DNA from: Antedon mediterranea
Taxonomy: Eukaryota; Echinodermata; Crinoidea; Comatulida; Antedonidae
NCBI RefSeq assembly: GCF_964355755.1
Contig: NC_092671.1
Coordinates: forward strand, 25,790,070 to 25,854,069
Direction of reading: 5' to 3'
Length of the DNA: 64,000 nucleotides
Within the stretch, counting starts at the first letter, position 1, and every line of letters starts with the position of its first letter. This document shows positions 1,646 to 32,000 of the stretch, in pieces. A model generated the notes under the pieces. That model did not search any database and was not told the origin of the DNA. It saw nothing but the letters and a program-made list of their open reading frames with translations. The position numbers and the translations under genes were made by a program.

Positions 1646-4600
1646 ATGGGCGCGGCAAATGGTAAGCCACGCCCCACAATAAGATCGGCTGTCGAAGTAG
1701 TTGATCAATCAGATGAGGAAATTGATATTATTGATTTGGAATATTCTGATTATTTTGACGATGTGTTTGAGGACAATGAACCGGTCAAACACGGAACACT
1801 CAGGAAAATACGATTGTGGGATTTTCCGTATTCGTCTCCAACTAAAAATGGAAAAAGAGCCGCAAGTGAAAGCGGTGGAATTGCATTCACAAGACGAGGT
1901 AATATACTAAAATTACATTCCAATAAGTATATAGGCCTATAAAAATGTATGATATCGGTTAATGACATACTAATGTTGTTGATCTAGTTTAGAGATGGAA
2001 TGGTATTATAAAAGATAATGAACAACCCCTCATTTGCGACACTCCTATTAAAGGAACACTTAGGATCCCTAAGATTTGTTGTTAATAGGTAATACTGTTT
2101 AATAATCAATATAGTGAACATATGAGACATCCACGAAGGGGACAATTTCCCTTGAAATGCCCGGGTTGAAATGGCAGTTTTGAATACAGGCGTTAATACA
2201 ACCCATTTTGGGACACCTCTATATTCAGGGTACATCCTTATCAAGGAGAAACAACGAGGGATATTGTGTTGTGTCCCGAAGGTGCCCTCCCCACACACAC
2301 GCACATCCCTGTTGTGGCTGTATTGTAAACTATGGTTAAATAGGCCTACTTCTTAAGCTTTTTATGAAATACGGCGGAGCAATACTGTGTGTAATGAAAT
2401 TATATGGTTTAAAGGTTATATACATAAACCCGGTTAAATCAGACCTTGTGATCTTGATACTTTTTATTATCACATATACAAGCCTTTTCATAAAATGATA
2501 AATGATAAATCCGGGTTAATTTTTGAAACATTTATGTATTTACTTCTTCGGAAATACCTACTGGTAACTGAGTATTTAAGATCACATGACCTGTACGCCA
2601 TTCCCTCCTGATTAAATCCATTACTTTTATGGACAACTTAAAACTTATGCTCACTGTTGTGTACCCACTTTTTAATTAATTGTGTTCACACGCACTGTAG
2701 AGTTAAAGCGTGATAGAACGGATTTAAGCTGAATCATGGCATGCAAGTGCATGTGGATATAATAAGCATAACTCCGGTATACCTCTGATAGGTTTCAGAG
2801 GTAATTATAACATTATACCACAAACGCAGAACAACAAGGGAAGAGTGTAAATTCATTCTTGCCATGGTTACCGATTGACGCACCGTTAACTACGATGTAA
2901 ACACCACTTGTACATAATATTTACAAAATTATAAACGCATTGTAACAACATTAATAAAATGTCAATCAGAAAATGAAGTATCTAGTATCAATAAGTCATC
3001 TCACAAAACAAACGCGTTGTGTGAATTATTGATGTTGAAATTATGATAAAAGAAATGTCGGTAAATTAGCTCGGGCAAAGTTTAAGTGTTGGTAAATACG
3101 AGGCTGGTCTGACACGTCTGCCATTGTACCCACATTTGACAAACCTATCCGGAACAACTAACTTCTCTGAACACAAATAACGCAGTAGTTTTTCAGTGGA
3201 GGGGAAAAATAGGCTTGACTTAAAGATAATCCTTAATGGTAAGAACTTAAGGAGGTAAGGTAAAATGAAGAACTATTATATTAATTGTCTTGACTTAGTT
3301 GGCCGAATTACTCAGCAGGTGATTGTCACTTAAATGTTCGTCTATGAGTAGGCCAACGGTAACTTACGTCGTCTGAAGATTGTACATGCGGTAATATACA
3401 GTTTGTAATGTCGTCTGAATAGTATTCGTCTGAAAAAATAGGGGTTGTGACTTTCGAAATGTGTTATCAGGCCTTATGTTTTCCAACATGTGACTTACGG
3501 CAAACATGCAATCAAGGTCGAATGAAATGTATCTATTTGGTATGTTTGACGTATCGAAGTCCAATAAAGAAAACTTAGAATTTAGCAAATTAAAGAAAAA
3601 TTTCTTTCTTGATTTCCTAGGTCTTTACTCAGAGTCAGACGTCATCACTCCACCTAAGCCAGACTATGGTACAATTCTGAACCACGGTCGCAAGAGAATT
3701 CAATCTGCCAAAGAAGCTCGAAGCAATTCTTCTAAACGATCTAATCTTCTAAGGAAACTTTTCACCAAACCCGAGAAAAAATCTGACCCAGATTCAGATG
3801 TCTACCAAGCAAACGCCTTTCGAAGACATCATATACCTTCTTCTAGCGCAATGGGAACGTGTTGTAGTACTTCAAAAAGCATTTCCAGTTTGTCCACACG
3901 TCAAAGTGAAACTTTCGCGAAAACATTTCCACATAAAAGAGAGTGTTCAGGAGAGCTTTCACAAAAACTTGAAGAAAATTCCAATAAAAGTGAATTTGAA
4001 ACTAAATTAAATTGTAATGATGAAAAAGCTTCTTATAAAAGAGAGTTCGAAGGAGGAGTATCTTATGAAAGAGAAATTGAAAGAGCTTCTCATAAAAGAG
4101 AGTTCGAAGGCGTTACACGCAAACCATCGAGACCTCAAGATAAAAACTCAGAAAATGACAAAAATCAATCCAACATTGTACGTCTTTCAAATGGCGGAAA
4201 TACTGGTTACTCAAATGGACAAAACAGTACTGATATTTGGGTAGGACGTGAATCTCCTAAGCAAAACAAAATTGAACAAACTCATGATTTAATGATAAAT
4301 GATGACCGTTTAAAACATGTGGATGGTAGACATAAACCTAGGCCTCTACCAAGAACTTTTATTAATAACGGAGCAACAGAAGCAAGGAATTCGTCAAGTG
4401 CCAGTGTTAGGAAAATATATATGCAACAGAACAACTCCCACCGACAACGGAAATTAACACCTGCTGTTCCTTTAACAGTACCAGGATTTAAAGGTAAGAA
4501 CAAGAATTACCCTCATGACAAAGATGCTGTGTCTCTATTAAAATCGTCCACACGTTGAACGTGTGGTATATGTTTTTTAAATGTATAATACACTGTGTTT

Positions 4601-7600
4601 TGTTATATTCTAAACTTTTGTACAAACATACTCGTACTGTATTTAATCCAACAAATATAAAAGTCATTCTATATACATCGGTCCAAAAATCAAAGTAATT
4701 GACAGGACTCGGAGTAGCATAGACAAACTATCGTCTTAAAACTAGTTACAATTACTCTAACAATTAATCCTATGCCATGGTTTCCACTACAGAGTTAGGG
4801 TTACGCAAGGACGTACAGTAAGCGCAACTTAAGTTAATGTTGGGTTCCCACTCTAGAGACGAAACACGAGGACGTAACGCAACGTATCTGATTTGACCAA
4901 TCACAAGTGGAGGATTATTCGAACTGTCATTTGTCATTGGTCAACTCGCGTGCGTTTCGTCTACGTCCTTGCAGAAGCATCATACAGTGTATAAAAAATG
5001 ATTTTCAAGATCCACTGAGTATAAAACCGGACGGAAAGTAGTACACAGAATGAATACGCGTGTAACTTTCATGATACAATAATTCAACCCATCGACAGCA
5101 TTTGACATAATGCTTTTTCCAACCGTAGATCACAGTATAATACATTGATTTGATAGGATACGAATTGATAGCGACGATGTTTGCACATTACAAAATTAAT
5201 AAAGTTGTCGCTGTCAAACCACATTCATTATTGATCCCGTATACACGTTGCATATTCCAATAATATAAGCAATATAACAACAATAAATGACTGTAAACAT
5301 TTAACATTTTATATTGAATGTTGTGTTATAATGAATATGAGAACTGATAATACGTCATAAAACTTCGTCTAAGTAAATAGTTTTACGAACAAAATATTCC
5401 CTGTAATAAGACTTTTATTAATGCATCATGTATTATCCTCGCAAAATATTGATGCCATTTTGTTGTCAATATGAAATAATTTAATAATTGTCGAGGAGCC
5501 CTTCTGAATCAAGCTTCCTGGCTTAAAGAGTTATCTTCTGCTATACCATAATAGTATAATTATTTAGTTTCTGTATGATTTTGTTAATTTAATAGTATAA
5601 TGTATTGTATTGTGTATATTATGGATAGCAATAAATAAACAAACAATAACACGTAAACAAATTTGTATAGAACCATTCGTATTATACTGATACATATATG
5701 CTTAGCAACAAGCATTTCTAAAATACAAGAATGATATCCATAATATATCCTAAAAACTGTTACAGGAAAAATGGTCGTAAAATGAATGAATTTGTTTTCA
5801 ATTCAATTTGATTTCGGAACAAGTCCATATCAACAATATACAATAACAACAATACAAATAAATAGTTCCAAAAAAGATTCGACTACAAACAAGATATGAA
5901 AAGTACTGTCAAAAGAGATTATTATGAACGTAGCAGTTGGAGGTCCATTTCCTATACAGAAGTTGTAAGCATTCGAGAATTAACACAAGAGTGATAAGTG
6001 AATAGCAACTATTGTCAATCTTAGGTTTAAACATTAGGCCAATCGTAACGTTCGAAAGAAACGTAATTTAAACATTCAGATGTAAGCACAAACTTTCCGG
6101 ACATTGTGATTTCACTACTGGGAGATGAACTGTCTCCACTCTGCCTTCTTTAGACGGAAACACTATGCATCCCCCGCCCCCCCCCCCCCCGCCTACCCTA
6201 AACTATAAAACTATAACAATATGCATGATGGTGATGTTTACATAATTGTTCCAGCCATCTATGTAGACCTGTTATTTATGATATTTTTGTTCAGACATAT
6301 TACCAGAATTCTGGTGCATGCGAGGAGAACAGTGTTTTTAACATTTGTATTTTAACATAATTATCTTTAAACACAGCCCCTTTGCGGCAGAGTAGTCTTC
6401 CTCCAGTTGGTGACGTAGAAGAGTTGTTATTTGAACGTGACAACAGCAGCCAGAGCAGATCAAGCAAAAGTACACCAACAAAAGGTGAGACAGTTTATGG
6501 TTTTGATATAACCAAAATAAACAAGAAATATTTCTTACAAAAAACGCCGCGTAACTTTTTGACTGGACAGTTGTAAGAACAGTCTTCATTAATCTAATAT
6601 AATAGGTCGGCCAATCAAAACGCAAGTGAACAATTGAGACTTTACTTGTGATTTATGTCATTGGCCTGTCAGCACAGTCGTTTCTTTCTAGAATTAAACG
6701 CACAAACTTGTATTGGGAATAATGTATGTTTATGTGGTTATTACTATCGCATTTAGGTATTGATAATAATAATAATATGGCTTTTGAATATATAATTACT
6801 GTCTGTAGAATAACATTTATACATTTTCGGTTCGCGATGAAAAGTTATATGAATGGATTTGTAATATAGGTATTTATAATAATAGTATATGGGTTGTATT
6901 ATTGCTAAGCTATCACCAAATCGCGTTATAACATTATTTCTCAGGGTTTTTTGCACCATTGATCAATACCAAACGCGTATCTGTATTATAGTTTTTAATG
7001 AATCATTACATTACTAAAAATACCCAATTAAATCAATCGCGTCAGTCCAATTCCGACTTATGTTTCGATCAGATAGTTCTGTGTCTACACTGTCCCAACT
7101 AGTTTAACAAAAAAAGTGTGATGTGCCCAAATAGGGTAGTGATATGCCCGAATATCGTAGTGATATGACATCGTCATGTCTATATAATATGGACACATCA
7201 TATTTAGTTTGATAGTATAGACAGAGCTTAAGGATTATATTAAAAAAATGTTTTCTTACATTTTGAAAAAAAAGTATTTATTTGTTTATAAGCCCAATTT
7301 TCCAGTCTTAATTTTACATTTTGAAAAAAAAGTATTTTATTTGTTGATAAGCCCAATTGTGCAGTCTTATTTTACATTTTGAACGAAAGTATTTATTTGT
7401 TGATAAGCCCAATTTTTCAGTCTTATTTTACATTTTAAACGAAAGTATTTATTTGTTGATAAGCCGAATTTTCCAGTTTAATAATAATGACCCCTTCCAC
7501 AGTGCTTATACCATATACATTTTACATGATATTGACCGTGGGTTCTTTACGCCTCTGATGCATTTGTTTTTATTGTACCTTTTTAATAAATTATTATATG

Positions 7601-10600
7601 TTTAGGCCAAATCACACCCAATTTAATGAAACGGTCAGATTCTGATTTCAATTGAACGAAAGTAGTACTGTATTATTCATTGATAAGCCAAGGGTCCCAT
7701 GGCGTTAGCCGATATCTTGAGCATTTGACTCATGTCAACCTGTGACACAAATCATTCTTCAAAATCTAAAAACCTCACACGTCTTTTTTGTGAGTGATAC
7801 ACTATGGATATGCACACGGAAATAATATGTGGACATTGCAAACAATCATAGGCCTACAGTAACAAACATAACATGGCTAATAAGCATAGCATTCAGACTG
7901 GTTTGTTTTCTAGTGGATTTTTATTTACTTTAGCATGTAGAATAAAACTAGTAACAGTGGCTATATTAATAATTATACTGATTATCCTTGATGTTATCGC
8001 GTCTAATAATAAAATATTTTGTTGTTGATAAGCCCAATTTTGCAGTCTTAATAATGACCCTTCCACAGTGCATTTTACATGATATTGACCGAGGGTTTTT
8101 ACGCCTCTATAGCCACTGATCAATACCATAATTAATGTACTTTTTTTTAATGAAAATTGAAATGTGTTTCAACATACCCAATTCAAAAAACGGTCCGTTT
8201 TCGAGTTCAATCTTTTGATTAGAGAGGTTGGAGTTTCATTTTGAACGAAAGTATTTATTTGATTGATAAGCCAAATTTCTAGTCCTAATGATTTGAGATT
8301 CAACGGGTTTTGCTTTCAATTGTATAATAATATAATTATATATTATATATAAATATAATATTAAGTATAATTATGAATTCACCAACACTTTCAGGCCCAA
8401 TAACAATGATCCCGGGCCCGAGTTTTTGTAGACTGGACTTCCATGCACAGCCACATGTTAAGAAATATGAATCTCTTTATGAATTTAATATGGTTCGAAA
8501 TGATATTACACAACAACGATTAGACAGCAACTGTGCAAGAGTCCAACTAATAAAATCGGAATGATCAGTTAATTAAACATTTACAGCATAAGGCCCATAC
8601 ACTAGGACGATAACGATCGACGATAAATAGACAAATATGCATTTTTAATACATAAACCAAAAGAAATATAAACAATTCCTTTGATGAAAATTATATTTTC
8701 ACACGTCCAATAAAATGACGTCATGATTAGTAAGACCATTAATATCGTGACAATACAGCGATTTTATTGTTTTTATTTATCATGACGTCATTTGATTGGA
8801 ATTTGAAAAACATTATTTTTATCAAAGACAGCATAAATGATTATCCTATAGGTCTAGAACGAAAACCTTTCTAATTTCTTTTGGTTTATGTAAAAAAAAT
8901 GCATGCTATATATTTATCGTCCGTCGTTATCGTCATAGTGTAATTGGGCCTTTATACAAAAAAAATAAATTGATTACGAAGTTACATGTCATTTTCACCT
9001 ATCACCAAAAAACTAACACTAATTAATTGTTACGAAGCCAATTTATATTATATATTTCATTAAATCTGAACTTTACGGTAAATGAAGAGTAAGTATCAGT
9101 TAATATGAATAATATAACTAGTAAGTCTATGAACTTGCGTCCAGACACAGAACTGTGACATTACTATCATAAATGTTGAAACCACTTATAAAACCTTTTT
9201 TTAAAGAAAATATAATTGTGTTAGGAGAAGGCTAATAAACAAATAGATAATGTACAAACCTTTTTCTGGATTAATTAATGGAGCAGGCGTTATAATAATC
9301 TGCTGCTGCTACCTAGACTGATTGTTCACCTTCTGACGATAATTGATTAGACCCCCCCACGGCATCTGATAACCAAAAAAAAATTTACCAGGACTGTTTC
9401 AATGATTTAATATCTGACGGCGTATTATTATAACATTGGCCTAGATTGACAGTCAAAAGAAAGTCATTGTAAATACCTCCCTTTATGTTGACAGAGCCAA
9501 AATAAAGTTTTGACCATTATCGAATGATTATTTGACAGTGACTTATTATAACACCGGCCTGGTTGACAGCAAAAACGAAGTTATTATTTATTGAACAAGA
9601 TTTTACAGATTTCCGTCTACATCTCAATAATACTGTATTATCAGCAAAGGCTTTCATATAGACTCTCTTCTCCCAGACGTTTTTTGGGTCCAGCAGCTAC
9701 CTATAAATTATAGTCGAGTTTCCAAATTCACAAAACTGTCAGCCTTAGATACTAAAGCTACCGCTATGAAACAGCTTATTAATGAATGTGTCCTCCTGGG
9801 ACATAGCTGGCTAGAGCCGCGGCGCGAAAATAATAATATTAATAATAAGCTAGAGCCTAATGTAAAATAGGCTTAAAGGCCGCCGTTGCACAATGAACAA
9901 CTCCCACGGGAAACGACACACGTCAAACGTCAAAACGAACCGTCATTTTTACGTGACGAACTCAATAATAATTTATTTTGAAGCTACACTTTTAAAACAG
10001 TGGCACACTTCTTGAATGAAGGTGCGTCCAGAGAAAGAAAAAAAAAATTATTGAACAATAGTCCTATTTACAAGGAAACTTTAACTAAATTATGTACAAG
10101 ATATAAAAAATAACATTAACAAAAGTAATACAGGATCTAAAAAGCAAAGAACTAATCAATTTGTATTGTTGATTTCCCTTCTTTTTTTCCATGCCCGTTT
10201 GGTAAAACAAAATCTATCGAATGCAACTTCAATATTTATAGGAAGATCAAGTACGGGTGAACCAAGAACATACATTAATGTTTGGTCTATTGTTCCATTA
10301 TTAAATTGGTTTAAACATCAATTGTATTCGATAGATTTTGCTCGAGTATTGCCAGTGTGACGTGTAGGAGGCGTCATTTCCAACTCTCCGACTCGCTTCG
10401 ATTTGTTTGACGCTTGCCGCGTGCCGCTTCGCGTGTAAAATGTCGAAGAACACATTTTAGTGGTTGCGAGACGTGGTTTGTTTCATTTTTAGAATTGTTA
10501 TAGAACCTTTATTTTGTTTAAATAATTTTTCTTCTTCTCTTATCCTTCTAATTGTAAACAACGAATCTCAATCACAAATCGAGTATCCGATGTTTTTACT

Positions 10601-13600
10601 GTATATTTGTAATAATTTTATTTACAGTTAAAACCAGGCCACCGCCTATTCAATATCATTTAAATTCATCACCATGTTCATCTAGCTGGCCTAGCCTATC
10701 AAATGGTGACGGATATCAGCATCATATACCGCCGCCTTCCACTCCACCACATAAAAACCTGCTATCACCTTCGCCGAAGCATCTGCTAGTTTCTGCTCGA
10801 CACAATCACATGCTTCCTAAAAGAAAACTAGTTCGAAAACTTACTCCTATTATTCTAGAGGTTCCAAAGAATTTGGAAGGCAAGTATTTTTTAATAATGA
10901 TCCTCAAATTCGCCATGATATTTAGCCATATATTTTTTTTTTCAAAATCACCATTTATCTTTATTTATCATCCTCATTATCATACATTTATATAAATAAT
11001 ACACCCGATATGCACTTTCCGTATAAAGTCAGTGACTATCACAAGTCATCGAGTATTACAAGTATTTAAAACTTGACTTGCGATAGTCAGTTAGACTTTA
11101 TCTACTGACAGAATCGGGTAAATAATATGACGGATATCAAAACTTAAAACAATCGACACCTTAACATTGACCTGTTGTGTTTGTGTTCTTTTTAGAAACG
11201 TTGTGTGTGCACCACAATCTTGCCTTGCTTTACTAGTTGTTTCGCCATTGCAGACACTATTTCAATTCAATTTGTATTCATATCTAAAATTACTATCTCT
11301 GAACATTGCAGGTCGTAACAATAGTTTATCTTCCGATGAAGAGGATGAGACACACCAGTTCCTCCATAACGGTGTCTACGGGTACGAGAGCATGGTAGAA
11401 GGAACACCAAAGTCCAACGGCTACGGACCAAGCGACGAATATAGAGAGGAGTTGAAAAACACGGTCGACGAACTGATAGACCAGTTGTCACCGACGATCA
11501 TGGGGGACGAGTTCATCGACAGACCTTACGGGCGACGAAGCCCATCGTACTGGCGAAAGCAACCTAGCCAGGCGCGAAACTTTGTATTTCCGGAGGTACG
11601 GCGTGTTGAAGAAGATAACGGCAAATTAGAGACAACCTTTCCACCAACAAATGGATATAGTGGAGATGCGTCTCCATCGGTATGTAAATAAATGTTCAAT
11701 AAATGATGCTAAGATGATGACGAAAATATCACATACTATAACAACGCCTACAATATGTTTGATAATGTACCATGTACAATAATGGTTAGGCCTACTATAA
11801 AGGATCACCGACACGTGATTATGCATAGTTGGCTTGGTGGTTATGATGCTTGACCACCACTCCAAAGATCCTGGGTTCAAGTCCCGTCACATGTCACATT
11901 TTCTAAGGACAAAATTACAACTCCACTCCCAAAGACTGGTAATAAGACATGTTTGTCTTGTGAACCTCTGAGGGTCCCTAATGATCAGAAATTGCTGGAT
12001 GGATCACCCTCATTAAATATGGTAAAAAAAAAGAAAACAGAAAGAATACGTTTTAGAATAGAAAATCTAACTATAAAAATATATACTGTATATTCACTCT
12101 AGTACCATAGACAAAGTATGTAATATTATAGTATCACATGTACATCATGCGATATTCTATAAGCCTACATTGCTGTTGATATTCGGCAAAGAGTATGCCG
12201 ACTGGGAATCGGCTATTGAACGCCATTCTAGTGATCTGAAGGTCCCATTGAAGATTTCTCAAAATGTAGGCCTACGGTACTGACGATGCTGATGATGTAA
12301 TGTTTAAAATGTTAACAATATCACTGATCAAAGGCACCACGTCAATAATAATTTAATGAAACATTCAGTCAACTTGGTTGAACTGGCATTTTGCATATTA
12401 ATTACTATCTGGAATTAACAGACAATGTAATGATTTTTCAATGAGCAATGTTAATATACTCGTTTTCTTTTTCTCTTAAGTTGGCACCGTTAAATCCTAA
12501 AGTTCATCGACGGAAAATAACACCGGCGCTTTCCGTTCATCCACCTCTTTATAGATTAGGTACGGTATAAAGTTGTTTAATTACGCATTTGTTTGGTTTT
12601 GTGTTGTTTTCTGTTCTTTTTTTTTTGGCGTTTTTGTATGTAGCCAAAGAAAATCGTTATATTAATTATATAAACTAGATGGTACGCTCGCTTCGCTCGC
12701 GTACCATCTAGGTCGTGCCCACAGATGGTTCTCGAATAAACAGTAATTTCAGCGTAGCAAAACTGGCGATTTCAAATGTACGTACCGCAGGACTATAATA
12801 CATTGTCGTTTACAGAAACGAATAAATAGACACGATGATTTATGTAGTCAACTAAAATTAGCACCCTGTGAATTACTTCCGAGGAGAAACTTATCAAAAT
12901 GAGTCCAAATTTTTGATTTGGCCTCATTTAAAGAAATCCAATTTGTGTTTTGTATGTAACATTAGGGTTGAGGGATGGGAAAGCGGATAGGTACAAAGAG
13001 GAACAATTTTTAAATATATTCTTTATCAACTCAGTAACGAAATATTTTGTTCTTTTTTTATAGGCCTATAAATACTATACCTCTAAATACAGTAAAACAT
13101 TTGAGATTTAATAAATAATACTTTGTTAAAACTGTCACTGTCATAATCGATTGAAATATTAAAGTACATGTCACGATACACCACTACGACGTTTATATTT
13201 TTGGTAATTATTAATTAATACAAACGTTGAGAAGGAACTGTCAGTATAATATAAAGTTTATTTGTATATAATAATGTGTTTATATATCTAACAGTACAGC
13301 CTATCCACAATCTCAGTAATAAAGTTTATTTGTATATATTTTTATATTACATCTAACAGTACGAACATTCACAGTAAGAAATTTTCGATTCAAATGAGGT
13401 ATTTACAGTATTGTCAAAGTATTGCAAGTTTATTCTCAAAGGGCCCATATATTTACCTACCGTATGTGTTAAACCAGGGGCTCATAAATTTACCTACTTG
13501 TGTTAAACCAAACTCTGGCAGACTGAGAGATTGGGATGTTCCATTCATCGCAAATCAATACATTTGTATAAACGTATATTAAATCTATCAAAATAGTATT

Positions 13601-14468
13601 TTTTTAAGAAAATCGGCCTGTCTTCAACATTATGATGGTGTACTCTAGCTGTTCAACCGGTTTTCAGCTATTAAAAACAATTATCGTAGGAGGAGATAGG
13701 AAAATGCGAAGCCTCCTCGCATTTTTGTGGCGGGTATTTTTCAAGATGGACATCCATTAGACAGTGTATACCACGATCGGAAAACACCTCTATTTGGGGC
13801 AAATCGTTGAACCTAAATTCGTTTTAATCGTCAATAACTAATTATCTAACTTAATTTAATTAGTAAACAGGGTTACATCAGGTGGTTAAAATCAGTACCG
13901 AAAGTACGAACCAACTTTATATACCATCGAGTACAAATTCTAGAAGTAAGGCGCAATTTACCGAATTTTGCCCTTACGTAAATTTATATATAGATAATAA
14001 TTATTAACTAGGCCTAATGGTATTAGGCCAGTTTTACCGGCGTTCATTGTGTAGTGGGCCGAATACTAATGGTTGATTAAATTAGGATTAGATGGATACT
14101 AAAACGTTATGAGAGCCGGTAGCATAATCTATTTTTGTTGCCTATATGTATACGTGTTTGGTTTTTTTTATTTGTGTTATTTTTTGAATGACAACAATAA
14201 ACTATACCCAACTACTACCTATCTGTCTGTATGGCTGTTCGTCTGTCTGTCTATCTGTCAATAATATGTATGTATGTCCGTCTATCTGTCTACACACACA
14301 CGCACACAAACTACTTTTCATTCATGTTATTCACCTACTGTATTAGTTTATAGAACATACTTGACGTGCATTACAAAACATCAAACTTTATTCTTTTTTC
14401 CTTTTATATATACAGATCAGTCTAAGATGGCATTCAACTCGTTTGTCGAAGACGAAGATCAATTCTAG
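1646..14468 (+). CDS. Seven-exon gene for a 661-residue protein of unknown function, possibly N-myristoylated
   Basis: Exons: 1646-1898, 3621-4493, 6377-6484, 10628-10879, 11312-11679, 12481-12559, 14416-14468; stop TAG. The sum is 1986 nt and every join keeps frame: phase 1 at all introns except the exon 5/6 join, which is phase 0. Five introns are GT-AG; intron 4 has an AG|GCAAGT donor. The protein begins MGAANGKPRP: Gly2 with a small residue at position 6 and basic residues after it fits an N-myristoylation signal (inference). An acidic stretch follows (about residues 20-48). Exon 2 encodes a low-complexity Ser/Lys/Glu-rich region with KREFEG repeats. RKLTPAV, RKLTPII and RKITPAL occur at the ends of exons 2, 4 and 6. 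Exon 5 has an acidic and aromatic segment (DELIDQLSP, SPSYWRKQ). The C-terminus is VEDEDQF. No enzymatic domain was seen and I do not recognise the family; it is probably a largely disordered membrane-associated scaffold. An AATAAA-like signal lies just after the stop (about 14481). Confidence 0.85.
1899..3620 (+). other. Intron 1 of the 661-residue protein gene
   Basis: GT at 1899-1900 and a polypyrimidine-CCTAG acceptor ending at 3620. No recognisable RNA gene was seen. The segment 2010-2310 has the look of an old dispersed repeat, but I could not match it to another copy in this window. Confidence 0.6.
4494..6376 (+). other. Intron 2 of the 661-residue protein gene
   Basis: Donor AAAG|GTAAGA, acceptor ACACAG. 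The exon frame stays open to a TGA-type stop at 4556-4558, so a retained intron would add 21 residues and end the protein there. Contents: MITE copy B with an adjacent broken copy (about 4783-4974), a poly-C run at about 6172-6190, and an A/T-rich tail-like stretch around 5580-5650. Nothing else was recognised. Confidence 0.6.
4842..4974. repeat. MITE of the GTTCCCACT family, copy B
   Basis: GGTTCCCACTCTAGAGACG opens the left arm, followed by GGACGTAACGCAACG, TTGACCAATCACAAG and GGATTATTCGAACTG. The right arm CATTGGTCAACTCGC with TCTACGTCCTTGC is its partial complement. A second, shorter relic of the same family lies immediately to the left (about 4783-4841). Confidence 0.75.
7254..7481. repeat. 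Four tandem copies of a 57-58 bp unit
   Basis: Four consecutive units begin TTACATTTTGAA, run through AAGTATTTATTTGTTGATAA and end GCCCAATTTTCCAGTCTTA, with point changes and small A-run differences. Related single units are scattered at about 7650-7690, 8018-8050 and 8238-8290. Confidence 0.85.
8018..8290. repeat. Diverged duplicate of the 7454-7640 block
   Basis: Both blocks contain, in the same order, TTGATAAGCC, then a stretch with AATGACCC and CTTCCACAGTGC, then TTTACATGATATTGACCG and TTTACGCCTCT. The order of shared words continues into ACGGTC and GAACGAAAGTA, so a segment of roughly 200 bp or more was duplicated and then diverged. Confidence 0.7.
8590..8952. mobile_element. Palindromic MITE with AAGGCCCA ends
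   Basis: The left end is AAGGCCCATACACTAGGACG with GATAACGATCGACGATAAATA; the right end is its near complement, ending TGTAATTGGGCCTT. The arms continue inward through GCATTTTT and ACATAAACCAAAAGAAAT with mismatches, then through paired ATGACGTCAT blocks near the centre. No coding capacity. This fits a non-autonomous DNA transposon. Confidence 0.8.
10880..10881 (+). other. Non-canonical GC splice donor of intron 4
   Basis: The exon 4 boundary reads GAAG|GCAAGT. Ending at 10879 keeps the exon a multiple of three and joins in phase 1 to the acceptor at 11311. The nearest GT, four bases downstream, would break frame. AG|GCAAGT matches the known consensus of GC-AG introns, which needs strong pairing with U1 elsewhere in the site. 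Confidence 0.8.
11003..11120. repeat. Small palindromic repeat in intron 4
   Basis: ACCCGATATGCA at the left end is answered by AATCGGGTA at the right. Inner arms ATAAAGTCAGTGACTATC with ACAAGTCA pair with TGACTTGCGATAGTC and AGACTTTAT. It is about 118 bp with no coding potential, so probably a short MITE. Confidence 0.65.
11822..12030 (+). mobile_element. tRNA-derived SINE (intron 5)
   Basis: A box A-like TGGCTTGGTGG is followed about 43 bases later by box B GGTTCAAGTCC, the two internal RNA polymerase III promoter elements. The body continues ACAACTCCACTCCCAAAGAC and TAATAAGAC and ends in a LINE-like tail with an A run near 12023-12040. A second copy lies inverted at 37025-37170. It is not a functional tRNA: no acceptor stem closes around the boxes. 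Confidence 0.75.
12675..12711. repeat. Short perfect hairpin with CGCTCGCTTCGCTCGC core
   Basis: Two 12-bp perfect arms, CTAGATGGTACG and CGTACCATCTAG, flank CTCGCTTCGCTCG. It is conspicuously GC-rich in A/T-rich surroundings. It could be the end of a mobile element or a cruciform-forming site; nothing here assigns a function. Confidence 0.75.
13246..13372. repeat. Tandem duplication of about 76 bp
   Basis: AATAAAGTTTATTTGTATAT and ATCTAACAGTAC each occur twice in the same order, separated by A/T-rich spacer and followed by CACAATC or CACAGTA. Confidence 0.65.
14221..14295. repeat. TCTG/TCTA microsatellite
   Basis: Imperfect tetranucleotide runs (ATCTGTCTG, GTCTGTCTGTCTATCTGTC, GTCTATCTGTC) just upstream of the last exon's acceptor. 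Confidence 0.7.
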
Positions 14469-16856: not shown

Positions 16857-18971
16857 TTATGGCGCCGATTGGTCTCCTTTCCAGCCACTAGATGATTTTG
16901 TTGTGTAGCCTAGGGGACCAGTCGTCGTCAGAAGCTGATCGTAAATGTGAGATAGTTGGTGCGCGCCTTCGTCTCTATTCATCTTTGTATTTTTATTTTG
17001 CTTTCTTATGCTGATGCTTTCTTTAATTTTACGTTTAAGCCAAACTTGTTCTTTGTGTAGTACCTCTATCTTATCCCAGTTAGGTATGTGGTTGTGTGTG
17101 GTCATATGGTCCGTGATTGCTGATTTATGTAAAATGGAGGACGAAACTTTCCGTGATGCACGCGTCTGCATGTTCTGTGTGTTTTCCTCAACATCTTTCT
17201 TGTGCTCTTTAATTCTGGTTTTGAGTGCCCTACCCGTTTCCCCAATATACACCATCTCACAGTTGGTGCACCCCACTTTGTAGACGACACCACAGGAATC
17301 CTCTTTGCATGCTTTATCTTTCGGTCGGACGATTAAGTTTTTAATTTTGTTAGATGGTTTAAAGTATGTTCGTATGTTATATTTTTTAAATGTTCTCTTG
17401 ATTTTCTCTGACAGGCCTTGAATATATGGGATGGATATCGACCCTCTTATATCTTCTGTTTCGGGTTGTTTGTCCGTTTTTTGTTTATCTAGGTTACGTT
17501 GTACCTTTCTAATCGTCCATGTAGGGTAGTTGCATTGTTTAAGTAAAGTATGTATCATCTCAGTTTCGTTCTGTTTGTCTGGATTATTTTTGATTATCGT
17601 GTTACATCTGTGTAGAAGTGTGCGGATAACGGATAACTTGTGTTGTAGAGGATGATGTGAGTTAAAGTCCAAGTATTGATTTGTGTGGGTGGCTTTCCTA
17701 AAAACTTTAGTGTTGATGTTGCCTTCCCCATCAACTAGAATTAGCGTATCCAAGAATGGGATAGAGTTGTCTGTTAAGGACATTTCTTCGCAAGTGAAAT
17801 TAATGTCATCATCGATTTTGTTTAAGTGTTGTAATAATGGTTGTGTCGCATCCTTGGGAATTATTGTTATAATGTCATCTACATACCTTTTCCACATCCT
17901 CGGTTTTATGTCGGTGTGAGCTGTAGTTATTGCCTCATTTTCCAGCCATTCCATAAATAAATTCGCAACAATCGGAGAACATGGACTACCCATGGCCATA
18001 CCTGAATTTTGCTGGTAGATATCCCCTCTGAAGCTGAAATATGTGGTGGTGAGGACCAATTGAAGCAATTCCATAATGTCGTTGATATGTAACCACGTTC
18101 TCTCTGATAGTTGTTTATCACAGTGTAAGCGTTCTTCAATTATTTTGAGGGACTTGTTGACTGGTGTTTTGGTAAATAATGACACTACATCATAAGAGAC
18201 CAATGTTTCATTTGGCTGTAACTTAATGTCCTTTATGTCATTGACAAATTCAAGCGAATTGGTAACATGATGGATGCTGTTTCCAACTAGTGGTACGAGA
18301 ATGTCGGCTAAGCTTCGTGACAAATTGTACATAATGGATCCCGTATAATCGACTATGGGACGTAACGGATTATTCATTTTATGGATTTTTGGTGTGCAGT
18401 AAATTCTTGGTGTGATGTCCGACGTGGGGTACAAGTAGTGTTTTTGTTTGACAGTGATTTTCTTTTCTTTGAGGAGTCTCGTGATTACAGTGATAAGTTT
18501 TTTCTTGTAGGATGAGGTAGGATTTTTCTTTAATAGCGTGTATGTATCAGTATCTGAAAGCATGTTTCTCACTTTCTCATCATATTCTTTAGTGTTCAGA
18601 ATTACTGTGGCCCTACCTTTATCGGCCGGTAATACCATAATGGTTTTATCTTTCGCGATGTTGTTCAAAGCCTGCATCTCTTCTTTGGTTACATTCGGAG
18701 TCGGAGGTTTAGTAGATTTAATTAGGCTTACCATCTTCCCTCGAAGTTGATCTTTTTCTATTTCCGGTAAAAGATTGCATGCTGATTCCGTGGCAACGAT
18801 CAGTTCTTCAGTAGGGTGGTTAGGTTTCGTAATCGCGTAGTTTAAGCCTTTGGTAAGTACATAGTTCTCAGTATGTGTTAGCCGTCTGTTGGATAAGTTA
18901 ATAACCCACTTTTTTCGTTGTGATCCTGTAGATTGCAAACCATCTGTATTCTTTTTGTCCCTTATGTTCAA
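16857..18971 (-). CDS. Penelope-like reverse transcriptase with GIY-YIG endonuclease
   Basis: A 704-codon open frame that copies element RNA by target-primed reverse transcription. Visible parts: an N-terminal segment typical of the family (VINLSNRRLT near residue 24), finger region LPADKGRATVI (about 114-124), RT motif A SYDVVSLF (about 259-266), GMAMGSPCSPIVAN (about 324-337), the catalytic YVDD (363-366), then a zinc-knuckle-like CKEDSC with VGCTNC, and the GIY-YIG nuclease (VVYKVGC ... YIGETGRALKTRIKEH, about 562-592). The first codon shown is TTG. The frame stays open back to the inverted-copy junction at 18986, so the true start is either lost or lies before the junction. No internal stop or frameshift was seen, so it may still be functional. 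Confidence 0.95.
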   Translation of the reverse strand: MNIRDKKNTDGLQSTGSQRKKWVINLSNRRLTHTENYVLTKGLNYAITKPNHPTEELIVATESACNLLPEIEKDQLRGKMVSLIKSTKPPTPNVTKEEMQALNNIAKDKTIMVLPADKGRATVILNTKEYDEKVRNMLSDTDTYTLLKKNPTSSYKKKLITVITRLLKEKKITVKQKHYLYPTSDITPRIYCTPKIHKMNNPLRPIVDYTGSIMYNLSRSLADILVPLVGNSIHHVTNSLEFVNDIKDIKLQPNETLVSYDVVSLFTKTPVNKSLKIIEERLHCDKQLSERTWLHINDIMELLQLVLTTTYFSFRGDIYQQNSGMAMGSPCSPIVANLFMEWLENEAITTAHTDIKPRMWKRYVDDIITIIPKDATQPLLQHLNKIDDDINFTCEEMSLTDNSIPFLDTLILVDGEGNINTKVFRKATHTNQYLDFNSHHPLQHKLSVIRTLLHRCNTIIKNNPDKQNETEMIHTLLKQCNYPTWTIRKVQRNLDKQKTDKQPETEDIRGSISIPYIQGLSEKIKRTFKKYNIRTYFKPSNKIKNLIVRPKDKACKEDSCGVVYKVGCTNCEMVYIGETGRALKTRIKEHKKDVEENTQNMQTRASRKVSSSILHKSAITDHMTTHNHIPNWDKIEVLHKEQVWLKRKIKESISIRKQNKNTKMNRDEGAHQLSHIYDQLLTTTGPLGYTTKSSSGWKGDQSAP

Positions 18972-18986
18972 TTGTATATCTAACTT

Positions 18987-19659
18987 CCCATATATTCAAG
19001 GCCTGTCAGAGAAAATCAAGAGAACATTTAAAAAATATAACATACGAACATACTTTAAACCATCTAACAAAATTAAAAACTTAATCGTCCGACCGAAAGA
19101 TAAAGCATGCAAAGAGGATTCCTGTGGTGTCGTCTACAAAGTGGGGTGCACCAACTGTGAGATGGTGTATATTGGGGAAACGGGTAGGGCACTCAAAACC
19201 AGAATTAAAGAGCACAAGAAAGATGTTGAGGAAAACACACAGAACATGCAGACGCGTGCATCACGGAAAGTTTCGTCCTCCATTTTACATAAATCAGCAA
19301 TCACGGACCATATGACCACACACAACCACATACCTAACTGGGATAAGATAGAGGTACTACACAAAGAACAAGTTTGGCTTAAACGTAAAATTAAAGAAAG
19401 CATCAGCATAAGAAAGCAAAATAAAAATACAAAGATGAATAGAGACGAAGGCGCGCACCAACTATCTCACATTTACGATCAGCTTCTGACGACGACTGGT
19501 CCCCTAGGCTACACAACAAAATCATCTAGTGGCTGGAAAGGAGACCAATCGGCGCCATAACGCATCATAGCAACTGAAGAAGTCAAGCTGACAGCTAGAC
19601 GAAACTGTCTTGCCAACGTAAGTTTTATTGGTTTACTATCAAAGAACTACTTATATTAT
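18987..19659 (+). pseudogene. Inverted 3' copy of the Penelope-like element
   Basis: A mirror image of 16758-17430, in which paired positions sum to 36417. It carries the last 189 codons of the element protein, including the GIY-YIG domain (stop at 19558-19560), and the same 3' tail. The open frame extends upstream to 18889 only because it runs through unrelated antisense sequence. There is no RT domain, so it cannot act as an independent element. Confidence 0.93.
19577..19614 (+). ncRNA. Second copy of the hammerhead-like core (candidate)
   Basis: The inverted duplicate of the motif at 16803-16840, with the same bases and the same deviation from the CTGANGA core. Confidence 0.3.
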
Positions 19660-20930: not shown

Positions 20931-23900
20931 TTATTTTCTAAAAGATGTGTGACCTCTGTGAGGGAGATTAGTCGACTGTTCATCCGTTTTAAACCTTCCA
21001 GAGAGTTTGTTAGCAAGATTGCAGATTATGGCAGCCTGAAAAAAATAATAAGTACATGAAAAATAGCGTTGCTATTATTATTATTATAATAATAAATTGT
21101 ATTATTCAGGATAGAAAAGTCTAGAAAACAAAAATATTTATTTTACAAAGTTGATAAAAAGGATAGAGAAATTCAAAATAAGAAAAGACTCATTACAAAA
21201 CAATAAAGTAATAAGAAGTTGATGGAAAAATATGCACAGATTGGGATTTAAACAAGGATTTGAACTAGGCCCTGAGATTTGGTGAACAAATATAAAGCAC
21301 CAAGCTATAGTGCCATTATTCCAAGAATTATAATATTTTAAATTGGCTTATTCTGGAAGTCAGAGCTTCTTACCTGTTTAGTCTTCACAATGAGTGAATG
21401 GCTACCAGAGCTATCACGATACTTAAGATGGAATGACTTCATATCAGATGAACAGTTCCATGAGCTGGCTTGCTCATATGGACAACTTGATAGTAAAACC
21501 TAAAATGAGAAGGTAAAAATTTAATTACAACTCTCAAGTAGGTATATTTTAACAAAATATTGTTTAGTTTGTACATGTACTGTACAAGGTGTTTTGCCGA
21601 GTCTTTACTGGAATGGCCACCATGAACAAAAAACAATTCACTTTTTAGTCCAGATCCAGATGTTCCTTAATTTCAAATACAACAACTTTATTTAACCACG
21701 GAGGCCCAGATCAACACATGGTTGTTCTTACCTGGAGCCGTGCAGAATCAAAGACACATAAAGATACAATGCTCGAAATAGAGATAGGCGTAAACAACAG
21801 GGGGCTTCAGGCCTATATAATTGACCACCCTTGAAACCCAGAAAATAGATGATTTAATAAGTGAGTGAGGAAAACAGGAGAAAAACTTGATATTTTATAC
21901 AAACCTTGCTGATTGCATTGATGACATGAATGCCTCTACAATTGGTACCTACAAACACTGCAACTGGGGGTCGCTGTGTCCCCCCAGTACGAGATGCACC
22001 CATTTGAGCAAATCCAAAGAAGAATGCTGATCCATAGATTACAAATGATCTACATTTTTCAAGGTACATTAATTGAAGTTTCTGCAAAAAAAAAACCAAT
22101 ACATTATTAATAAGAATGCCTTGAAATCTTTCATTTTCAGTATTAAAGTTTGTTTTGAATTGGACGCAATGCAATTGAGTTGACCAATCACAAGCGACAG
22201 TTCAGATGATCCATCGCATCATGATTGGTCAAACAACTTGCAGTGAGTACATTCTCACAGTGTTTAAATTGAAATTTCAACTTTACTTCATGCAAATGAG
22301 ATGAATTACAGAAAGTTCAGACCAATCAATAACCATATTCAGTTATTTTAAATAAATCATTTTTAATTTCAATTATTAAGTGTTTTCCACATTTTCATTT
22401 CTTTGTTTTATTTTGCATTTTAATTACACTTATTTTGCATTTTAATTCCACTTATTTTCTAGGGTAAAGATGAGATAAACTATTTCAACTAACTTTCAAA
22501 CTAATTCATTGTGCGCTTACAGGGATATTGAGACATGTTTCATCACTCCCTATCTCAACACATATTTTGATGCTTTCTATGTCCAGGCATTGACTAATGA
22601 CATGATTGCCATGACCTAGTAAGATGGTCAGTCATAGTAAATCAAAAGCTTCTCAATAAATGTTATTGAACTTGCATGCATTAGACACTCACCATGATAT
22701 CTCTCACTCCTTTACTTGTAATGTTCTTGTGTTCTGTTGAAATTCTTTGAGCCCAGTTGGAAGTTTTAGTTGCTGGGGCCTTAGCTTCTAACTTAACCCC
22801 TGGTATAAAATGCCTTAAGTTTATATTGCTGAGGAAAAAGAAATATAAAGGTTTCTTAAATGATAATCATATTGAACTACTGCTTTTGCCTCGCAATGCA
22901 TTTCCAGTATTCATGCAAGTAATAATAGACAGGTTCCATTTCTCAAAAAACGGCCTAGAAAACGAATCAAGAAGCATTTTTGGGTAGAAGCTGGGATCCA
23001 CTTGATTTAGGATATTTCGACCTCGCTGATTACGAATATGGCGGATCCCAAGCGAAATTCGGCCATCTAAGCCCTTAATTTGCATAATTAAAAATGGCGG
23101 CCATTTTTTATAATTACCCTATATCTCGAGAACCACTAGTCACAGATAATTAATTTTGGTGTCAAAATGTTTTAAATATATGTTTTTATATTCACTTTAA
23201 TGACACTTTTTCTCAAAAAATTGATGCAAGTTGTATTTCTGACATTTTGACCTTTGACCTTGATTTATCGTATCTCAGTAACCAATAATCGGAGAGACAC
23301 GAAATAGGGCTCAAATTGTTCAGAAACTATACATTCATATTTATTATAATGAAATGTTTTTACAAAAAATGGCCGATTCTACAACTATTGACCTTTGAAC
23401 TATTAGTCAAATATAATAATAATATAACTTTGAAAATTGTGGTCTTATGAATTTTTTTTTCTTTTTAAATTGTTTAAAACATGTGACGTGTTTCTATCCA
23501 TTCTAATGGAATATTTTGTACAAGAATGGCCGATAGTATGGTTATTGACCTTTTAACTACAGCATAGGCCTACTGTATACTAAATATAATATAATTGCAT
23601 AACTATGAAATTATTTATACACAATAACAATTAGTAAAATTATAAAATTCACTGCCATCAAATATGATGTGTTATTATTTATATAGATTTAAAAAGGAAT
23701 TTGAATACGCAAGTTACATTTTTTGAAATTTGAAATTTGAAATTACCTGCCATCAATATGATGGAGTGTGCTTATAGATTTTCTAAAATGTGAACATGTC
23801 AGCTACATTTGGAAATTACCTGCCATCAATATGATGGATTATGATTATAGATTTAAATAAGAATTTGAACACGTAAGCTACATTAGAAAATTACCTGCCA

Positions 23901-26900
23901 TCAATATTATGGATTATGATTATAGAATTAAAAAAGAATTTGAACACGTCAGCTACATTTGGAAATTGGGAAATTACCTGCCATCAATATGATGGATTAT
24001 GATTATAGATTTTAAAAAGAATTTGAACACGTAAGCTACATTTGAAAATTACCTGCCATCAATATGATGGATTATGATTATAGATTTAAAAAAGAATTTG
24101 AACACGTCAGCTGCATTTGGAAATTTGGAAATTACCTGCCATCAATATGATGGATTATGATTGTATAGTACCTGCCATCAATATGATGGATTATGATTAT
24201 AGATTTAAAAAAGAATTTGAACACGTAAGCTACATTTGAAAATTACTTGCCATCAATATGATGGATTATGATTGTATAGATTTAAAAGAAAATGTGAACA
24301 CGTACGTAAGCTACATTTGGAATGAACATGTTAAGGGCATCAGTTAAGATCATTCATGCAAAGGTTTCCGTCATCTTTAGCGTTGTTACAGCGGCATAAA
24401 GCTGTACATGGTAGTTTTGACTTCTTGCACCTACATTTATTGGTTATGTATCGTGTCTTGCATCCACAATAAATCATCTCTAACGAAGCAGTAGGAATAG
24501 CTTCATTTTTCAGAAGCACTGGTTGAAGTTTACCATTAGATAGCTCCCAACCAGAATATGTTGGTGATGGCAAATGCTGGATTGGCGATACAGCTTTTTT
24601 CCATACGAGTGCTTGGAAGTGTGCTCTTTTTATATGTTGGTGCACTGCATCGCTTGTTGGAGGTAATGCCTTTTTTTTTTTAAAGCCTAACTTTATTGGT
24701 ACTTTTAACTTGACCAACACCGTAAACGTAGCAAATGAATCTTTCCGATTTCATAATAACTTGGTCACTGATAGGTTTTCTCCCAGGTCTTTAATTAGTT
24801 CATACCTTTTTTTAATACTTCCCATGCCGATGCCTTTGAGTGACCACTTAGATATGAGCAGTGAAGAGTTAAATTACTGTATGTATGTATTAATATAATT
24901 TAACTCTTCCCTGGATATGAGGTAGTATCGCATCCACTAATAGTGTGGAATGGAATCAGTGCTTTTGCAGAACCCTCGGGCAAGGCTTGAAAAATGTCTT
25001 TTATAGATACTTTCTTTTTTTGGATGTCCCTATCATCATCCATTTGGATACCATGCTTTGGTAGTGAGACACTAGAATCACTAGTACGTACGTCTGTATC
25101 CCTAGAAGCAACTACAACTGTGTCGTATCGGACATTGGCAGCATGACAAGTCTCGTGTCCTATTCTTCATGGTCTGACCAGAGACAACGTATTCGTGTAC
25201 AATTTTGATGATTTAACAACTGATTCTTTCATAAATCCACCAGCTGTGACAATTTCTTTGTCTACAGGAGCTTGACGAATCAACTCCTCTGATAGAAATC
25301 GTGTCAGATCTGCATTATTATCTTGTAATGCCAACAAGTTTGACCAGCAATTTGGCAGCGGTATTTCACCACTTTCTATAATTCGACGAATTGGTCTCTG
25401 TGTTTTGGTTCATCTTTGTCTGGTGGTGTCCTTTATCGACAGTTTTAAGTTAGGCATGCCATGTTAAAAAAAACAAAAAACCAGAGGCATTATCTCCAAC
25501 AAGCGATGCAGTGCACCAGCATATAAAAAGAGCACACTTCCAAAAGCTGTATCGCCAATCCAGCATTTGCCATCACCAACATATTTTGGTTGGGAGCTAT
25601 CTAATGGTAAACTTCAACCAGTGCTTCTGAAAAATGGAGCTATTCCTACTGCTTCGTTAGAGATGATTTATTGTTGATGCAATACACGATGCATAACCAT
25701 ATAGATGTAGGTGCAAAAAGTCAAAACTACCATGTACAGCTTTAATATGCTACTGTAACAACGCTAAAGATGACGGAAACATTTGCATGAATGATCAAAA
25801 CTGATGCCCTTAACATGTTCATTCCAAATGTAGCTTACGTGTTCACTTTTCTTTCAAACCTATACAATCATAATCCATCATATTGATGGCAGGTACTATA
25901 CAATCATAATCCATCATATTGATGGCAGGTAATTTCCAAATGTAGCTGACGTGTTCAAATCCTTTTTTAAATCTATAATCATAATCCATCATATTGATGG
26001 CAGGTAATTTTCAAATGTAGCTTATGTGTTCAAATTCTTTTTTAAATCTATAATCATAATCCATCATATTGATGGCAGGTAATTTCCAAATGTAGCTGAC
26101 ATGTTCACATTTTTAAAAATCTATAATCATACTCCATCATATTGATGGCAGGTAATTTCAAATTTCAACAAATGTAACTTGCGTGTTCAATTTTTTTTTA
26201 ATCTATATAAATCATAACACATCATATTTGATGGCAGTGAATTTTATAATTTTACTAATTATTATTGAGTATAAATAATTTCATAGTTATGCAATTATAT
26301 TATATTCAGTATACAGTAGGCCTATGCTGTAGTTTAAAGGTCAATAACCATACTATCGGCCATTCTTGTACAAAATGTGCCATTAGACTGTATAGAAACA
26401 CACATGTTTTAAACAATTTAAAAAGAAAAAAAAAATTCATAAGACCACAATTTTCAAAGTTATATTATTATTATATTATTATATTTGACTAATAGTTCAA
26501 AGGTCAATAGTTGTAGAATCGGCCATTTTTTGTAAAAACATTTCATTATAATAAATAAGAATGTATAGTTTCTGAACAATTTGAGCCCTATTTCGTGTCT
26601 CTCCGATTATTGGTTACTGAGATACGATAAATCAAGGTCAAAGGTCAAAATGTCAGAAATAAGACTTGCATCCATTTTTTGAGAAAATGTGTCATTAAAG
26701 TGAATATAAAAACATATATTTAAAACATTTTGACACCAAAATTAATTATCTGTGACTAGTGGTTCTCGAGATATAGGGTAATTATAAAAAATGGCCGCCA
26801 TTTTTAATTATGCAAATTAAGGGCTTAGATGGCCGAATTTCGCTTGGGATCCGCCATATTCGTAATCAGCGAGGTCGAAATATCCTAAATCAAGTGGATC

Positions 26901-29070: not shown

Positions 29071-32000
29071 CTGTGAAGTAATAAAAACAGAATAACTAAT
29101 ACCCATACATTTAACATACACCATTTGTACATTTGACATACACCATTTGTACATTTGACATGTACACCATTTGTCCTACTCTTTCTGTAAATTTGACCTA
29201 CTCCTTCTGTACATTTGACTTACTGCCTCTGTACATTTGACCTACTCCCTTTGGACATTTGACTTACTGCCTCTTTACATTTGACCAACTCCCTCTGTAC
29301 ATTTGACTTACTGCCTCTGTAAATTTGACCTACTCCCTCTGTACATTTGACTTACTGCCTCTGTACATTTGACCTACTCCCTTTGTACATTTGACCTACT
29401 GCCTCTGTACATTTGACCTACTCCCTTTGTACATTTGACCTACTGCCTCTGTACATTTGACCTACTCCCTTTGGACATTTGACTTACTGCCTCTGTACAT
29501 TTGACCTACTCCCTTTGGACATTTGACTTACTGCCTCTTTACATTTGACCAACTCCCTCTGTACATTTGACTTACTGCCTCTGTACATTTGACCTACTCC
29601 CTCTGTAAATTTGACCTACTCCCTCTGTACATTTGACCTACTGCCTCTGTACATTTGACCTACTGCCTCTGTACATTTGACCTACTGCCTCTGTACATTT
29701 GACCTACTCCCTTTGTACATTTGACCTACTGCCTCTGTACATTTGACCTACTCCCTCTGTACATTTGACTTACTGCCTCTGTACATTTGACCTACTCCCT
29801 TTGTACATTTGACTTACTACTTCTGCACATTTGACCTACTCCCTCTGTACATTTGACCTACTCCTTCTGTACATTTGACCTACTCCCTTTGTACATTTGA
29901 CCCACTCCCTCTGTACATTTGACCTACTCCCTCTGTACATTTGACCTACTCCCTCTGTACATTTGACCTACTCCCTCTGTACATTTGACCTACTCCCTCT
30001 GTACATTTGACCTACTCCCTCTGTACATTTGACCTACTCCCTCTGTACATTTGACCTACCCCCTCTGTACATTTGACCTACTCCCTCAGCCTCTGTACAA
30101 TAATAACAATAATAATAACAACACCTTTATTAAAAGGATTTCTTCATTTTCCAGGTGTCATTCTAACATATTTCTAATTTCAGATTTGCAATAACCTAGG
30201 ACCAACACATATTGTGTCATTGTCCATCTCCTGGACCTAGAATCAACCAACACATATTGTGTCATTGGCCAGCTCCTGGACCTAGAATCAACCAACACAT
30301 ATTGTGTCATTGGCCAGCTCCTGGACCTAGAATCAACCAACACATATTGTGTCATTGGCCAGCTCCTGGACCTAGAATCAACCAACACATATTGTGTCAT
30401 TGGCCAGCTCCTGGACCTAGAATCAACCAACACATATTGTGTCATTGGCCATCTCCTGGACCTAGAATCAACCAACACATATTGTGTCATTGGCCAGCTC
30501 CTGGACCTAGAATCAACCAACACATATTGTGTCATTGGCCATCTCCTGGACCTAGAATCAACCAACACATATTGTGTCATTGGCCAGCTCCTGGACCTAG
30601 AATCAACCAACACATATTGTGTCATTGTCCATCTCCTGGACCTAGAATCAACCAACACATATTGTGTCATTGGCCAGCTCCTGGACCTAGAATCAACCAA
30701 CACATATTGTGTCATTGGCCATCTCCTGAACCTAGAATCAACCAACACATATTGTGTCATTAGCCAGCTCCTGAACCTAGAATCAACCAACACATATTGT
30801 GTCATTGGCCAGCTCCTGAACCTAGAATCAACCAACACATATTGTGTCATTGGCCAGCTCCTGGACCTAGAATCAACCAACACATATTGTGTCATTGGCC
30901 ATCTCCTGGACCTAGAATCAACCAACACATATTGTGTCATTGGCCAGCTCCTGGACCTAGAATCAACCAACACATATTGTGTCATTGGCCATCTCCTGGA
31001 CCTAGAATCAACCAACACATATTGTGTCATTGGCCAGCTCCTGGACCTAGAATCAACCAACACATATTGTGTCATTGGCCAGCTCCTGGACCTAGAATCA
31101 ACCAACACATATTGTGTCATTGGCCAGCTCCTGGACCTAGAATCAACCAACACATATTGTGTCATTGTCCATCTCCTGGACCTAGAATCAACCAACACAT
31201 ATTGTGTCATTAGCCAGCTCCTGGACCTAGAATCAACCAACACATATTGTGTCATTGTCCATCTCCTGGACCTAGAATCAACCAACACATATTGTGTCAT
31301 TGTCCATCTCCTGGACCTAGAATCAACCAACACATATTGTGTCATTGTCCATCTCCTGGACCTAGAATCAACCAACACATATTGTGTCATTGGCCAGCTC
31401 CTGGACCTAGAATCAACCAACACATATTGTGTCATTGGCCATCTCCTGGACCTAGAATCAACCAACACATATTGTGTCATTGGCCAGCTCCTGGACCTAG
31501 AATCAACCAACACATATTGTGTCATTGTCCATCTCCTGGACCTAGAATCAACCAACACATATTGTGTCATTGGCCAGCTCCTGGACCTAGAATCAACCAA
31601 CACATATTGTGTCACTGGCCATCTCCTGAACCTAGAATCAACCAACACATATTGTGTCATTAGCCAGCTCCTGAACCTAGAATCAACCAACACATATTGT
31701 GTCATTGGCCAGCTCCTGAACCTAGAATCAACCAACACATATTGTGTCATTGGCCAGCTCCTGGACCTAGAATCAACCAACACATATTGTGTCATTGGCC
31801 ATCTCCTGGACCTAGAATCAACCAACACATATTGTGTCATTGGCCAGCTCCTGGACCTAGAATCAACCAACACATATTGTGTCATTGGCCATCTCCTGGA
31901 CCTAGAATCAACCAACACATATTGTGTCATTGGCCAGCTCCTGGACCTAGAATCAACCAACACATATTGTGTCATTGGCCAGCTCCTGGACCTAGAATCA

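Follow-up and report, generated by a model that had tools for sequence, protein, structure and literature searches.

A gene of Antedon mediterranea with a peptide repeated at three exon ends, encoding a candidate docking adaptor

Lipid-anchored disordered scaffolds are represented by AKAP5, AKAP7 and AKAP12, and the MEF2A-type mode of docking to mitogen-activated protein (MAP) kinases uses two basic residues that are followed by alternating hydrophobic residues. Here we describe a gene of the crinoid Antedon mediterranea that can be compared with both of these systems. The gene lies on the forward strand at positions 1646 to 14468 of a stretch of 64,000 nucleotides (contig NC_092671.1, positions 25,790,070 to 25,854,069), which is hereafter called the window. 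Its seven exons encode a predicted protein of 661 residues, in which the short peptide RK[LI]TP recurs near the 3' ends of exons 2, 4 and 6. The best mechanism we can offer for this arrangement, which we put forward tentatively and consider doubtful as a whole, is a lipid-anchored disordered adaptor whose three peptides may dock a MAP kinase-like enzyme.

The protein resembles the three AKAPs in its acylation-like start, its disorder-prone body, a predicted helix of amphipathic type (residues 537-554) and its short peptide motifs. It differs from them in that the strict RII-binding helix pattern has no match in the protein, and a sequence relation, which was sought only via Pfam and the PDB, was given by neither. 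Cystin, another myristoylated protein, was also considered as a comparison, and a literature search on it yielded nothing useful. As in the MAP kinase D-motifs of the greater MEF2A class, each repeated peptide presents a basic pair and then alternating hydrophobic residues within a disorder-prone region. Moreover, copies 1 and 3 can be aligned by eye, without gaps, with the MEF2A peptide SRKPDLRVVIPPS, which is used as a ligand of the p38 groove in PMC4670726. Unlike members of that class, the candidate docking peptide occurs here three times, at fixed positions ahead of exon ends, carries proline at the first-hydrophobic position, and belongs to a protein in which the loose consensus is not enriched overall.

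A peptide repeated at three exon ends

The exons and the three copies of the motif, all on the forward strand of the window, are as follows.

1646..1898, forward strand: exon 1, residues 1-85 (ending with the first base of codon 85), with the myristoylation-type start MGAANGKP
3621..4493, forward strand: exon 2, residues 85-376, phase 1-1
4448..4493, forward strand: motif copy 1 (RKLTP), RKLTPAVPLTVPGFK, through the end of exon 2
6377..6484, forward strand: exon 3, phase 1-1, without the motif, weak codon support
10628..10879, forward strand: exon 4, phase 1-1, GC donor, weak codon support
10834..10879, forward strand: motif copy 2 (RKLTP), RKLTPIILEVPKNLE, through the end of exon 4
11312..11679, forward strand: exon 5, indicated by the joined frame and codon usage
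12481..12559, forward strand: exon 6, indicated by the joined frame, without codon-usage support
12511..12559, forward strand: motif copy 3 (RKITP), RKITPALSVHPPLYRL, through the end of exon 6, including PPLY
14416..14468, forward strand: exon 7, which carries the stop codon

A preliminary description of this DNA had proposed a gene for a 661-residue protein, with a repeated motif near three exon ends that is preceded by basic residues and followed by a Val/Pro-rich stretch, and each of these elements was recovered. Assembly from the exon coordinates gives one open frame of 661 residues with consistent exon frames. The motif starts at residues 361, 481 and 629, which lie 15, 15 and 16 residues from the ends of exons 2, 4 and 6, and a phase-1 intron follows every copy. 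This shared phase adds little, because five of the six introns are in phase 1 (exons 1-6 end in phases 1, 1, 1, 1, 0 and 1). Basic residues stand ahead of every copy, those before copy 2 (PKRKLVRK) resembling a nuclear-import signal by eye, and the Val/Pro-rich stretch is present after the motif. In an alignment of the three copies, the invariant columns are R, K, T, P and one later P.

Among 200,000 shuffled versions of the protein, 352 contained RK[LI]TP and none contained it more than once, and the probability that three random positions would fall within one residue of equal distance to the exon end is 0.0003, with both tests having been devised post hoc. The likeness extends over the 16-17 residues of the tails: when one tail of a pair was shuffled 2,000 times, the observed score was reached in 0.1% of cases for copies 1 and 2, 0.05% for copies 1 and 3, and 1.1% for copies 2 and 3. 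Given that, with a reduced amino acid alphabet, some pentamer is present at least three times in 296 of 5,000 shuffles (5.9%), the evidential strength lies in the strict motif combined with its place. The looser form [RK][RK][LIVM][TS]P has only the three sites in the six frames of the window and the adjoining locus L011 (7,070 upstream bases added), with no fourth site in the protein or in any frame of this sequence. Three such sites alone are not unusual, since at least three were obtained in 11 of 60 Markov simulations (mean 1.6; tandem array excluded). The three-fold repetition of the peptide is real.

The coding frame is free of stops up to the final TAG in all seven exons, and both other forward frames contain stops in exons 1-6 (with minima of one in exon 3 and two in exons 1 and 6). 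Exon 7, at 53 bases, gains no support from this test because its other forward frames hold only 0 and 1 stops. All six acceptors are AG, and the donors are GT apart from that of exon 4, where GC is found (exonic AAG followed by intronic gcaagt). The G+C content is 0.418 in exons versus 0.329 in introns. The start ATG is supported by an in-frame TAG that begins 12 bases upstream. An AG between this TAG and the ATG could serve as an acceptor, and hence there could be an upstream coding exon. Intron 3 contains approximately four copies of a 56-bp unit (7256-7477).

To score codon usage, ten chaperonin-family loci of the same genome were considered; two that have stops in the matched stretch were excluded, and the other eight supplied a table of 1,279 codons. 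As background, 3,000 length-matched segments were taken from the six introns of the gene itself. Exons 1, 2 and 5 exceed all 3,000 segments, and 7.4%, 3.2% and 1.7% of the segments score at least as high as exons 3, 4 and 7, respectively. The coding frame is outscored by one or more of the five wrong frames in exons 2, 3, 4 and 6. Two cautions apply to these values: the table is small, and the exons either are short or have an unusual composition. Within these limits, codon usage counts against exon 6, whose support is the motif itself, which is in frame and has its usual spacing to the donor.

Predicted disorder, membrane attachment and searches for relatives

Three further features of the coding sequence bear on the character of the protein.

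3851..3877, forward strand: internal ATG at residue 162, within exon 2 (MGTCCSTSK), a possible alternative lipid-anchored start by pattern match
4027..4110, forward strand: 27-bp tandem unit within exon 2, 2.9 copies, giving a KREFEG-type repeat in the protein
11434..11487, forward strand: predicted helix, residues 537-554, of amphipathic make-up, from modelling of the exon 5 piece as a single sequence

In a charge-hydropathy analysis, 31 of 32 protein windows fall on the disordered side, and the exception (residues 601-660) contains copy 3. N-myristoylation is associated with a Met-Gly start and a pattern of the type G-x-x-x-[STAGCN], which fits residues 1 (MGAANGKP) and 162 (MGTCCSTSK), or two of the three Met-Gly places. 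Adjacent cysteines such as those of MGTCCSTSK are found in doubly acylated proteins. The lipid anchor that had earlier been suggested as a possibility is, in our judgement, plausible at the first ATG, and the internal ATG appears the better candidate by its cysteines. A membrane-tethered adaptor is favoured because disorder-type charge-hydropathy values are found together with two myristoylation-type starts. Modelled as a single sequence, the exon 5 piece has a mean predicted local distance difference test (pLDDT) score of 56, a low value of the kind that is usual without an alignment and is not proof of disorder, and it contains one helix, at residues 537-554, with pLDDT of approximately 80-87. 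The protein is probably floppy and perhaps membrane-tethered.

When the whole protein and two of its pieces were compared with Pfam, every match stayed below the curated cut-off, the best being 15.4 bits for the piece spanning exons 5-7 (cut-off 24.9) and 14.8 bits for the whole protein (cut-off 27). No match was obtained in the PDB with either the whole protein or a profile of the three tails, and the exon 5 helix region gave two weak matches (E 0.65 and 3.2). IMG/VR, queried with exons 5-7 (eight pattern stretches), and GTDB, queried with the whole protein (26 stretches), yielded no relative, these being collections of viruses or prokaryotes in which absence says little about animals. Within the 354,431,138 bases (18 contigs) of its own genome no second copy of the gene was found, as each of seven matches is one of the gene's own exons. 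In the PMC library, none of five peptide strings was found; likewise, RKLTP gave no paper, and RKITP gave only papers with titles on unrelated subjects. The exon model, the repeat, the disorder-type composition and the lack of a second copy found are results computed here. They describe a real-looking gene that these searches did not place in a family, for which a binding role of the tails is a guess.

Possible partners and origin of the tails

We propose that the gene may encode a mostly disordered, probably lipid-anchored adaptor in which the three RK[LI]TP tails would be divergent versions of a single docking peptide. Among named partners, the likeliest would be a MAP kinase, bound by its docking groove (p38/ERK, in the MEF2A-type mode). 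The adaptor would concentrate such a kinase at a membrane, and some SP/TP sites of the protein, perhaps including the TP within each motif, could be substrates of the kinase. We infer the lipid anchor, the docking, the kinase partner and the membrane role. There are 15 SP/TP sites, compared with a shuffle mean of 9.4 (3% of shuffles). A narrow MEF2A-type pattern has seven overlapping matches, all within the three copies (shuffle mean 1.98; at least seven in 0.7% of 3,000 shuffles), and, when two basic residues are required, it has exactly three sites, which are the three copies (mean 0.34; 0.4% of shuffles). It is improbable, in our judgement, that the gene goes further and represents a new family of lipid-anchored scaffolds, with a docking exon-end triplicated so that one membrane protein presents several kinase-docking peptides in tandem, and in which two alternative myristoylated starts would yield forms with different anchors.

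A number of observations weigh against docking to a MAP kinase. The narrow pattern was picked after the motif had been seen (about ten motif patterns were tried in one round and five in another), and copy 2 fits it in a shifted register only. The loose D-motif consensus printed in PMC4670726 (basic residue(s), x(0-5), hydrophobic, x(1,2), hydrophobic, x, hydrophobic) is not enriched, with three sites (copies 1 and 2 and residue 48) versus a mean of 4.4 (85% of shuffles), or four versus 6.0 when proline is allowed (90% of shuffles). Copies 1 and 2 fit this consensus with L/I/V/M/F as the hydrophobic residues, and copy 3 does so only with proline as the first. A JIP1-type D-motif pattern has no match in the protein. 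Furthermore, any D-motif match is weak evidence, because seven D-motif regular expressions give 87,857 matches in 20,248 human proteins, according to PMC4670726. The gene model has weak points of its own: the GC donor that exon 4 requires for intron 4, and exon 6, which, with a codon score matched by 39% of intron segments, looks no more coding-like than intron.

Some of these observations sit more comfortably with tails that dock another partner, either an as yet unnamed domain or basic-hydrophobic contacts with a membrane, in place of a MAP kinase, and we rate this possibility somewhat short of even. The repeat above chance, the likeness of the tails, the ordinary count of the loose D consensus and the basic residues before each copy, among them the nuclear-import-like PKRKLVRK, are all consistent with it; however, no specific partner is indicated, and the profile of the three copies matched no PDB chain. 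A very unlikely proposal is that the tails recruit the phosphatase calcineurin through LxVP and PxIxIT elements. Both types of element can be discerned within the tails, since LTVP is present in copy 1 and LEVP in copy 2 and nowhere else in the protein (strict L.VP, 1.3% of shuffles), and PALSVH in copy 3, the sole PxIxIT-like match, fits by eye the form P-x-x-x-[IV]-[TDH] printed in PMC5156906. Nevertheless, a single PxIxIT-like match is expected in 42% of shuffles, two matches of the looser L.[LIVAPM]P occur in 27%, no copy has both elements in accepted form, and copy 3 is without LxVP. The polar-hydrophobic-LxVP form has no match, with V-P preceding LxVP in copy 1 and I-I in copy 2; these copies by eye also miss polar-hydrophobic-L-x-V-P as given in PMC5156906, which itself judges the form too conservative. 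Calcineurin docking fits less well than MAP kinase docking. The cyclin-docking pattern [RK]xLx(0,1)[FYLIVMP] was tried as another candidate and rejected; the protein contains eight matches to it, a number reached by 2% of shuffles (mean 3.5), and copies 1 and 2 are among the matching sequences, with copy 3 having I. Least probable of all, by a shade, is that a biased protein carries the motif by coincidence, or that exon 6 and copy 3 lie outside the transcript. The lack of codon-usage support for exon 6, the GC donor required by exon 4, the ordinary count of the loose motif in six frames and the 5.9% of shuffles with a reduced-alphabet pentamer present three times would accommodate such an explanation, but not one of the 200,000 shuffles has two strict copies, the similarity of the tails is reached in 0.05-1.1% of the tail shuffles, and the copies are in frame, in order and nearly equidistant from donor sites.

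How the three copies arose is a separate matter, which was assessed independently of the partner and fits any of those considered above. The preliminary description offered exon duplication or three copies of a docking motif. Three copies of one peptide are indeed present, and the docking role is what we infer for them; a true duplication, in which exons 2, 4 and 5+6 would derive from one phase 1-1 exon that was later split by intron 5, is possible but rather unlikely. Symmetric phases (1-1) are seen in exons 2, 3 and 4 and in the pair 5+6, the motif-to-exon-end distance is equal, and copies 1 and 3 share 17 of their first 21 bases (81%; copies 2 and 3 share 57%). Among 15 pairs in a whole-exon comparison, one fell below 0.05 (exon 2 versus exons 5+6, 0.04 of 300 shuffles). 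Once the tails are removed, however, the exons are not detectably alike, as the similarity of the three exon pairs is reached in 0.11, 0.30 and 0.93 of 500 shuffles. In addition, the introns after the copies are 27-32% identical over their first 60 bases, and copies 1 and 2 have 46% of 46 bases in common.

Surrounding sequences and significance

Several other sequences were noted around the gene. A 712-codon open frame (16860-18995, minus strand) matches reverse transcriptase (E 6e-9) and, below threshold, GIY-YIG, and a neighbouring frame (18865-19560, plus strand) repeats its C-terminal part in the opposite orientation; we take these to belong to a Penelope-like element. Arrays of a similar unit of approximately 75 bp, in opposite orientation, are located at 23739-24162 and 25860-26252, and between them lie two minus-strand frames (24343-24750 and 24903-25166) with no Pfam match at E 1. 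The arrays and the enclosed frames are perhaps a mobile element with repeated ends. Upstream of the gene, a cysteine-rich stretch is common to L011:3064-3234 (minus strand) and L011:4824-5003 (plus strand), in opposite orientation, and is similar by eye to the end of frame 24343-24750, and these are likely to represent one mobile family. At 30201-35875 there are 126 copies of a 45-bp unit (97% matches), with a frame open on both strands for approximately 1,900 codons, which does not have to mark a gene, since the unit length is divisible by three. An open stretch with ankyrin repeats (37298-37549, minus strand; Ank, E 3.6e-11) is probably an exon of a neighbouring gene. Elsewhere in the genome, the only match to the family of bindin, an echinoderm protein, is at G000:C1:15552879-15553076 (minus strand; 198 bases, E 2.3e-28), with one TAA inside the span. 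This match makes an echinoderm source likely. The assembly gave no match to the COX1 family.

The evidence base at present is one genome and one gene model. Should orthologues preserve the three tails against a drifting remainder of the protein, three natural versions of a single docking peptide would be available within one gene. Such a series would then be useful for testing how repeated motifs, and their placement at exon ends, evolve in disordered proteins.

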